From NCBI GenBank assembly GCA_012729835.1, contig JAAYCK010000054.1, positions 1 to 43,091 on the forward strand: a DNA stretch of 43,091 nt. The letters are read 5' to 3'. This stretch comes from Syntrophomonadaceae bacterium (GTDB lineage Bacteria; Bacillota; Syntrophomonadia; Syntrophomonadales; Syntrophomonadaceae). Both the position numbers and the translations under genes were made by a program. This document shows positions 2,121 to 3,302 of this stretch, one piece after another. Under the pieces are notes generated by a model. That model worked only from the letters and a program-made list of their open reading frames with translations, ran no database searches and was not told the DNA's origin. The stretch's first letter is position 1; the number at the start of each line of letters is the position of its first letter.

Positions 2121-2143
2121 ATATGATTATATTTGCTCTAGAG

Positions 2144-2173
2144 TTGACAAAACCTGACCGTAAAGAGTATATA
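2144..2173 (+). promoter_or_regulatory. sigma-A-type promoter for leader ORF and corA
   Basis: TTGACA (2144-2149) is a perfect -35 match. It is followed after 18 bases by TATATA (2168-2173). Transcription would start near 2180, giving a short 5' end before the leader ORF ribosome binding site at 2190-2202. No other good promoter is seen between here and corA. Confidence 0.7.
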
Positions 2174-2205
2174 AATAGAGGAGTCTAAAGAAAGGCGGTG
2201 ATGAT

Positions 2206-2298
2206 ATGGAACCTATACCCGAATACCGATCATGGCATTGGATTAACCTAAATAACAAGTCCGGGAGGGTTGCATTGAGCCGCTGGATTAATGCCTGA
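2206..2298 (+). CDS. corA leader peptide (candidate Mg2+-sensing upstream ORF)
   Basis: A 30-codon ORF lies between the corA promoter and corA. It has a strong ribosome binding site, AAAGGCGGTGAT, just before ATG. The peptide begins MEPIPEYRSWHW and ends SRWINA. Enterobacterial MgtL, the leader of the Mg2+ transporter gene mgtA, begins MEPDPTP. Such acidic/proline N-termini are known to destabilise translating ribosomes at low Mg2+. The resemblance here is only at the first residues and could be convergent. The ORF stops 26 bases before the corA ATG. Its codons 19-22 overlap one arm of an RNA pairing described separately. That the ORF is translated is an inference from its ribosome binding site and position. 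Confidence 0.65.
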   Translation: MEPIPEYRSWHWINLNNKSGRVALSRWINA

Positions 2299-2317
2299 CT
2301 CTTCCGTTTCTGGAGGG
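2262..2317 (+). promoter_or_regulatory. alternative RNA pairings around the corA ribosome binding site
   Basis: Right after the leader stop codon, CUUCC (2301-2305) can pair with GGAGG (2312-2316, the corA ribosome binding site) across a 6-base loop, with one G-U pair. The same segment, CUCUUCCG (2299-2306), can instead pair over 8 positions with CGGGAGGG (2262-2269) inside the leader ORF, with two G-U pairs. The two helices are mutually exclusive, so ribosome position on the leader could decide whether corA is translated. The pairings were found by eye and no folding energy was computed. Confidence 0.5.
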
Positions 2318-2324
2318 ATCGCGC

Positions 2325-3302
2325 ATGATCAAAACCTACTTCTACGATTACGAAAAGAACTCTATGTTCCACGATGTTGACTTGGCCGAAAAGGATACCC
2401 TGCTGGCCAATCCACAAAGCCTGCTATGGATAGACATCTATGATTGCTCTGCTACAGAGCTGAATTATATTGGAGACCTTTTCGATTTCCATCCCCTGGC
2501 TCTGGAAGATTGTCTGCAAATCAGTCCCCGGGCCAAGCTTGACCGCTATGATGAATACAACTTCTTCGTTTTCCACGCCCTGCGTTATTTTGAAGAAGCT
2601 GAAGAGGAAGATGAGATCTCCAGCATCGAGCTCGATGTTTTTATGGGCAATAATTATATCGTCACCATCCATCCTATCGCTCTGGCGGCTGTTGGCAAGG
2701 TAGCTCGCGTTTGTTTGCGGGAAACCGAATTAATGGTACTCGGCCCGGAGCATTTGCTATACCGAATAGTTGATAACATGGTCGATGACTACTTCCCGAT
2801 AATAACTCGATTAGGTGAACGCATCGACGATTTGGAAGATAGTATTTTTATGGACCGCGGCCGGGAGATCACCGAAGAGATACTGGCGCTAAAACGTACT
2901 ATTATTTTGCTGCGCAAGGTACTCATCCCGCAGCGCAGGATATTCGGGAATATCAATGGTCACTATTCCTTCCTGGTCAATGAAGAGAATATCCCTTACT
3001 ATTTGGATCTAGTCGACCACCTGGATAGCGTGCTGGACACTGCAAATACCTATCGTGACCTGGTCAACAGTACCACTGAAACTTATTACTCTATTATTAA
3101 CGGCAGGACCAGCGAGATCATTACCGTATTGACCATCATATCTATAATCATGATGCCGCTCACCGTGATAACCGGTTTCTTCGGTATGAACGTGCATATC
3201 CCCGGCGCTGACAATCCCTTTTATATGATCTATGTACTGCTGGGGATGGCAGCCCTGGCCGCAGCCATGTTGGGCATCTTCCGCTATCGCCGCTGGATCT
3301 AG
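2325..3302 (+). CDS. corA: CorA-family Mg2+/divalent cation channel
   Basis: A 325-residue CorA protein. It has a long acidic cytoplasmic domain (about residues 1-255), then two C-terminal membrane helices. The family signature GMN is at residues 287-289, at the end of the first helix (TVITGFFGMN), followed by a short acidic-containing loop and a last helix ending RYRRWI. CorA forms a homopentameric channel that admits Mg2+, and sometimes Co2+ or Ni2+. ATG at 2325 is 8 bases after GGAGGG. It is the only large plus-strand gene in this part of the window and is followed by a bidirectional hairpin terminator. It probably responds to Mg2+ through its leader. Confidence 0.95.
   Translation: MIKTYFYDYEKNSMFHDVDLAEKDTLLANPQSLLWIDIYDCSATELNYIGDLFDFHPLALEDCLQISPRAKLDRYDEYNFFVFHALRYFEEAEEEDEISSIELDVFMGNNYIVTIHPIALAAVGKVARVCLRETELMVLGPEHLLYRIVDNMVDDYFPIITRLGERIDDLEDSIFMDRGREITEEILALKRTIILLRKVLIPQRRIFGNINGHYSFLVNEENIPYYLDLVDHLDSVLDTANTYRDLVNSTTETYYSIINGRTSEIITVLTIISIIMMPLTVITGFFGMNVHIPGADNPFYMIYVLLGMAALAAAMLGIFRYRRWI

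Follow-up and report, generated by a model that had tools for sequence, protein, structure and literature searches.

How is translation of the Mg2+ channel gene corA controlled in a Syntrophomonadaceae bacterium in which a short open reading frame (ORF) with an acidic and proline-containing beginning lies directly in front of it? The locus lies in a window of 43,091 nucleotides (the whole stretch of DNA analysed, contig JAAYCK010000054.1). It comprises, all on the plus strand, a promoter (2144-2173: TTGACA at 2144-2149, an 18-nt spacer and TATATA at 2168-2173) that is kept in relatives; a leader Shine–Dalgarno (SD) sequence, GGCGGTGAT (2194-2202), present in relatives as a conserved GGYGGTGGT; a leader ORF of 30 codons, MEPIPEYRSWHWINLNNKSGRVALSRWINA (2206-2298, with its ATG at 2206 and its stop codon at 2296-2298); and corA itself (2325-3302), which encodes a CorA-family Mg2+ channel (PF01544, E 7.9e-67) and has the SD sequence GGAGGG at 2312-2317. 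The corA ATG at 2325 is 26 nt past the leader stop. The original prediction had named this promoter, leader SD, 30-codon ORF beginning MEPIPE and spacing to corA, and all of them are present at the coordinates that it gave.

It had also proposed that the corA SD can be hidden by pairing and released by an alternative pairing inside the leader ORF, and both complementarities exist: the anti-SD TCTTCC (2300-2305) is complementary to the corA SD GGAGGG, and the alternative pairing joins 2262-2271 with 2297-2306. We refer to four RNA segments. Segment 1 consists of the leader SD, which forms its 5' part, and codons 1-6. Segment 2 (2262-2284) contains 2a (A; CGGGAGGGTT, 2262-2271), assigned by pairing and folding as the partner of 2297-2306 in the ON fold or of codons 2-6 in the OFF fold, and 2b (D; GCCGCT, 2279-2284), assigned by folding and a swap test as the OFF-fold partner of the leader SD. 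Segment 3 (B; GACTCTTCCG, 2297-2306) is the anti-SD, which in folding and swap tests partners either segment 2 or the corA SD, and segment 4 (C) is the corA SD.

The encoded channel is 85% identical to CorA of Syntrophomonas palmitatica, the closest relative with a name among the matches, and was the single match when its own genome was searched with CorA. No MgtE was found in the source genome, the M-box riboswitch (RF00380) had no match in the window or the source genome, and no intrinsic terminator was found in the corA leader. On the minus strand, an MBL-fold gene (PF00753, 1130-1960) is divergent from corA, and an inverted repeat, ATTTGCCGCTT / AAGCGGCAAAAT (2087-2122), lies between this gene and the corA promoter. 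A PhoU_div/DUF47 gene (PF01865, 3471-4103, minus strand) is convergent with corA, and similar sequence is also found behind corA in several relatives (for example, L003-L006).

A search for CorA across 63 genomes of the order yielded 32 close orthologs, 31 of which had upstream DNA, the 32nd lying at a contig end. The leader preceded corA in all 31, about 107-137 nt 5' of the gene, and reads MEPIP, MDPIP, MEPVP, MDPVP, MEPLP or, from a GTG start, VDPWP (M[DE]P[IVLW]P), after a GGYGGTGGT-type SD. It was absent from 10 of 10 divergent CorA paralogs of the same clade. One further locus, L089 (G429:C241), has an intact leader with all segments and no corA downstream, through either loss or an assembly break. 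A promoter of the TTGAC-N-spacer-TA form (a match of at least 9 of 12, with a 16-18-nt spacer) was found 62-190 nt 5' of the leader in 30 of 32 cases, compared with 0.95 expected from shuffled sequences. The conservation expected by the original prediction, of MEP-x-P or MDP-x-P leaders with co-varying pairings 5' of corA, is therefore found throughout the order, and the locus has the general make-up of an MgtL-type system, in which a short ORF with an acidic and proline-containing start (here MEPIP) stands 5' of a Mg2+ transporter gene (here corA).

Across 32 leaders, codons 2, 3 and 5 had an entropy of 0 bits at positions 1 and 2, whereas their third positions varied (1.26, 1.16 and 1.96 bits, respectively); codon 4 encoded I, V, L or W, and from codon 6 onward all three codon positions were variable. 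With the first two positions of these codons fixed and the third free to vary, the pattern, read from sequence comparison, indicates selection on the peptide M-[DE]-P-x-P, concentrated in its first five residues. The conserved core, codons 2-5 (E-P-I-P, 2209-2220), is by analogy with MgtL and MgtQ the predicted site of Mg2+-dependent ribosome drop-off. These data bear on the idea that the RNA fold is itself what responds to Mg2+, as in a riboswitch, with the ORF as a passive spacer. The RNA does have stable folds that exclude each other and whose balance Mg2+ could shift; however, the third-position freedom of codons 2, 3 and 5, next to their invariant positions 1 and 2, shows that the peptide is important, the larger part of the ORF body is unconserved, and no Rfam family matched the leader in the window or in its relatives, so none gives it the identity of a known RNA family. 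We consider this explanation extremely improbable.

Folding of the naked leader RNA of this locus gave a structure in which 1:2 and 3:4 are paired and the corA SD is closed. The 1:2 helix joins GGCGGT (2194-2199) with GCCGCT (2279-2284), AUG with CAU, AACCU with GGGUU and CCCG with CGGG, and 3:4 pairs UCUUCC (2300-2305) with GGAGGG. When the leader start was covered, as by a ribosome, the RNA moved to a 2:3 fold, in which GGGAGGGUU (2263-2271) pairs with GACUCUUCC (2297-2305) in a helix extended by GCAUUGA/UUAAUGC, leaving the corA SD largely free; when segment 2 was covered, 3:4 re-formed. The probability that the corA SD of this locus is unpaired was 0.03 in the free RNA, 0.52 with a ribosome at the leader start and 0.02 with a ribosome over A, and the corresponding means for 32 leaders were 0.09, 0.28 and 0.02. 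Opening was greater with the ribosome at the start than over A in 32 of 32 leaders; for many members a modest opening is predicted, and four (L010, L022, L065 and L066) showed none in the ribosome-at-start model. Different pairs form when a longer stretch (2174-2400) is folded, and the fold energy of this single leader sequence alone is unremarkable (z -1.58, not significant).

The folding results revise one part of the original prediction, whose two-state scheme would have corA switched on when no ribosome occupies the leader. Instead, ribosome-free RNA is predicted to be OFF: segment 2 is taken up by pairing with the leader SD and codons 1-6, and 3:4 stays closed. Of the two states that had been envisaged, the high-Mg2+ state, with a ribosome over segment 2, folds closed as proposed, whereas the ON fold appears only with a ribosome at the leader start. 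According to the model, the ON state is thus predicted to need a ribosome that starts the leader without proceeding along it. Overall, conservation and pairings support the proposed reading, and its two-state scheme is corrected.

We evaluated co-variation without a fitted alignment, by comparing the duplex energy of each segment with its own partner and with partners taken from other leaders, using one leader per genus. Within the order (18 genera), A:B, that is 2:3, was better with its own partner by 2.6 kcal/mol, and over all 28 genera by 3.6 kcal/mol (in both cases p 2.5e-4, the permutation floor). In 12 later leaders that were unused for any model, the own A:B pairing scored -21.2 kcal/mol compared with -14.1 for swapped partners (p 5e-5). 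Control pairings were null (ORF start with B, p 0.53; A with C, p 0.73; and 1:3). For segments 1:2 the difference between own and swapped partners was -2.9 kcal/mol (p 2e-4); the leader-SD pairing by itself (S1:D) had weak support inside the order (p 0.06), and it is the whole 1:2 helix that is supported. Support for 2:3 was taken from the non-overlapping A:B test and not from a figure based on overlapping windows. B:C shows little variation, the SD being fixed. As judged from these sequences, pairings 1:2 and 2:3 co-vary. A chance ORF or chance complementarity is ruled out by the conservation in 31 of 31 orthologs, the codon-position pattern and the swap tests with their null controls.

A device with two competing helices is more than ordinary translational coupling would call for. 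In such coupling, leader translation as far as the stop codon would melt 3:4 and hand ribosomes on to corA, with no Mg2+ sensing, and the anatomy offers it an opening, since in most leaders the stop codon abuts or falls inside the SD hairpin, 12-31 nt from the gene start. Coupling has no need of the 2:3 helix, yet this helix co-varies, and it leaves unexplained both the peptide-level selection on codons 2-5 only and the confinement of the leaders to genes for Mg2+ transporters and to transcripts with an M-box, described below. Nor does it suit the leader at L106, which overlaps the start of mgtE, or that at L023, where the leader stop is 50 nt 5' of corA. We regard coupling as unlikely.

The reading that we favour, and hold to be probable, is that the corA leader is a translational attenuator with its leader peptide as the Mg2+ sensor. 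Asp-Pro repeats stall Bacillus subtilis ribosomes (PMC11381351), so that chains of this sort do affect ribosomes of Gram-positive bacteria. Taking this stalling together with the anatomy of mgtQ and the drop-off at MgtL, we infer a three-state scheme, in which the drop-off, the way it depends on Mg2+ and the direction in which corA responds are all drawn by analogy. The leader mRNA would adopt either 1:2 and 3:4, with the corA SD hidden, or 2:3, with the corA SD free. Ribosomes initiating at the strong leader SD would open 1:2. At low free Mg2+, the nascent M-E-P-I-P would destabilise the ribosome and cause it to drop off or stall within codons 2-6; segment 2, left uncovered, would pair with segment 3, opening the corA SD and allowing more Mg2+ channel to be made. 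At high Mg2+, ribosomes would proceed over segment 2 to the stop codon, 3:4 would form and corA would be shut, as it would also be by 1:2 and 3:4 when no ribosome occupies the leader. Drop-off at MEPIP may be weaker than at the EPDP of MgtL, because MEPIP carries just one acidic residue and lacks PP. Sequestration of the SD would explain this anatomy without Rho.

The device had been envisaged for corA in this clade, and its reach proved to be wider. We built a first covariance model from 24 leaders of the order and searched 299 genomes of the phylum; at E<=1e-4 it had 12 matches beyond the order, every one directly 5' of corA or mgtE. A second model, searched in 398 genomes, gave 33 matches at this threshold, 9 inside the order and 24 outside, and all 33 were leaders before corA or mgtE, including each of the 24 outside, 12 of which were unused in model building. 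Among weaker matches to the second model (1e-4 to 0.01), 10 of 16 also precede one of the two genes. Weak matches with no such transporter downstream (L090-L094, L127, L130, L132, L140 and L141) were taken as chance; at L130, a uORF beginning MEPDLGD, probably unrelated, lies 5' of a homocitrate/isopropylmalate synthase-like gene with a T-box. A DNA pattern search outside the order recovered two mgtE leaders (L053 and L054) and one locus that was discarded as a chance match in coding DNA (L040). Leaders of about 22-60 codons were found 5' of corA or mgtE in some 20 further families of the phylum. Because MgtE (PF01769/PF03448) and CorA (PF01544) are unrelated transporters, Mg2+ transport is what the leaders have in common. 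Some loci are irregular: the mgtE downstream at L117 is broken up (decayed) and the corA at L102 has a frame break; the corA leaders at L101, L102 and L104 have AUA, AUC and AUC, respectively, at the start position with normal SD spacing and an in-frame GTG inside the SD, possibly as rare non-canonical starts; and the leader ORF at L106 extends for 60 codons, overlapping mgtE in another frame.

Leader starts vary by family, including MDPDPGS, MDPGP, MDPSP, MDADP, MDAEP, MDAGP, MDSGP, MDGGP, MDGVP, MDDPD, MESVP, MDPDG, VDPYP, VDPLP and VDGDG, the last without proline. An MDGGP leader also precedes a corA ortholog of another family (L024, 57% identical) that the first model (R1) did not match. 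Every one of these families keeps an acid at codon 2, whereas proline is variable, and this argues against a proline (prolyl-tRNA) attenuator of the kind proposed for some Salmonella Mg2+ leaders, in which proline shortage would stall the ribosome at codons 3 and 5. Both of these codons encode Pro in all members within the order, as such an attenuator would have it. Elsewhere regulatory Pro codons are missing from some members: MDSGP and MDGGP leaders keep the codon-2 acid with only one Pro, and in the VDGDG leaders before mgtE (L126, L137 and L139) that acid is kept with no Pro in codons 2-5. The genes downstream are, moreover, Mg2+ transporters, not proline genes. We judge a proline attenuator to be very unlikely, and return to the leader peptide as Mg2+ sensor.

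The M-box riboswitch (RF00380, the ykoK/mgtE leader) places Mg2+ transporters under Mg2+ control. The leaders would resemble it in this respect but are a separate element, and in at least 15 leader loci an M-box lies directly upstream, at a short distance from the leader and often with a U-rich, terminator-like stretch in between. Because the conserved GA at codon 2 in the R1/R2 matches is partly built into the covariance models, a leader-blind survey served as an unbiased check: 199 genomes were searched for M-boxes, and the 255 nt that follow each M-box were scanned. Behind 37 of 70 M-boxes lay a uORF led by an SD and with codon 2 encoding D or E. For strong-SD uORFs, D or E occupied codon 2 in 59% (n=49), compared with 0 of 7 controls, and with a looser SD cut-off in 41% (n=102), compared with 7.6% (n=92) in control stretches; the mean D/E/P/G count in residues 2-6 was 2.59 behind M-boxes and 0.57 in the control. 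These counts indicate that, throughout the phylum, M-boxes are commonly followed by leaders with an acidic start. Some M-box loci, L144, L148 and L206 among them, have uORFs with an acidic start (such as MDTGSS, MDDGGN and MDYDDR) where a simple motif test did not recognise the next long gene as MgtE or CorA.

Within the open-access full texts searched, a leader of this kind was not found in Firmicutes, and no description of it was found in two large RNA-motif surveys (PMC8632094, PMC11109978). We think it somewhat likely that leaders with an acidic, ribosome-destabilising start are a general, undescribed Mg2+ sensor of Clostridia-like Firmicutes that acts on the translation of corA and mgtE, and that behind the M-box they act in series with it as a second sensor, with transcription gated by the riboswitch according to free Mg2+ and translation gated by the leader according to how stable the cell's own ribosomes are. 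For a few leaders of enterobacteria, Mg2+ sensing has been tied to ribosome destabilisation by acidic and proline-containing nascent chains. If our reading is true, the same logic operates in a distant phylum, on non-homologous transporters and coupled to the M-box, which would make the ribosome a widespread Mg2+ gauge and give M-box transcripts an unrecognised second layer of control. The dozens of natural leaders (MEPIP, MDPDP, MDSGP, VDGDG, MDDPD) would also be a resource for finding chains that destabilise Gram-positive ribosomes.

Among known systems, the mycobacterial M-box with uORF2/Rv1805A likewise has a conserved small ORF between the M-box and the regulated genes, but there the M-box controls the uORF2 SD, and the peptide is Mycobacterium-specific with no role assigned (PMC12810186); the Firmicutes leaders, by contrast, follow the M-box with an acidic start and a 2:3/3:4 switch of their own. 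CorL of E. coli and Salmonella is also a short ORF 5' of corA, and its translation lowers corA expression; it differs in being poor in acidic and proline residues, starting with UUG, acting through Rho and having another anatomy (PMC11552253). MgtL of mgtA, in the same two species, shares the Acid-Pro-x-Pro start and a leader SD that can be paired in the OFF fold, and efficient translation of MgtL represses the Mg2+ transporter (PMC11282234, PMC11552253). Its EPDP motif causes ribosome drop-off at low Mg2+ (PMC11282234). MgtL works by Rho-dependent termination, whereas the corA leader has an SD-sequestering hairpin, and no intrinsic terminator was found in it (PMC11282234, PMC11552253 for MgtL). 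In Salmonella mgtQ, an 8-codon ORF 5' of mgtB, Asp2 and Glu5 destabilise the ribosome, 2:3 frees the mgtB ribosome-binding site (RBS), and mgtB expression falls when the start codon is lost (PMC8092293). The corA leader shares with it an acidic codon near the start and, as predicted from folding and co-variation, the alternative folds 1:2 with 3:4 or 2:3, the RBS of a Mg2+ transporter as segment 4, control at translation and a gene that is off when the leader is not started (PMC8092293 for mgtQ). mgtQ is intergenic in a PhoP-controlled enterobacterial operon, 5' of a P-type ATPase gene (PMC8092293), whereas the corA and mgtE leaders of Firmicutes are 5' leaders of about 22-60 codons with their own promoter. 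We infer by analogy that the corA leader would work as MgtL and MgtQ do, a likeness of working for which we claim no common descent.
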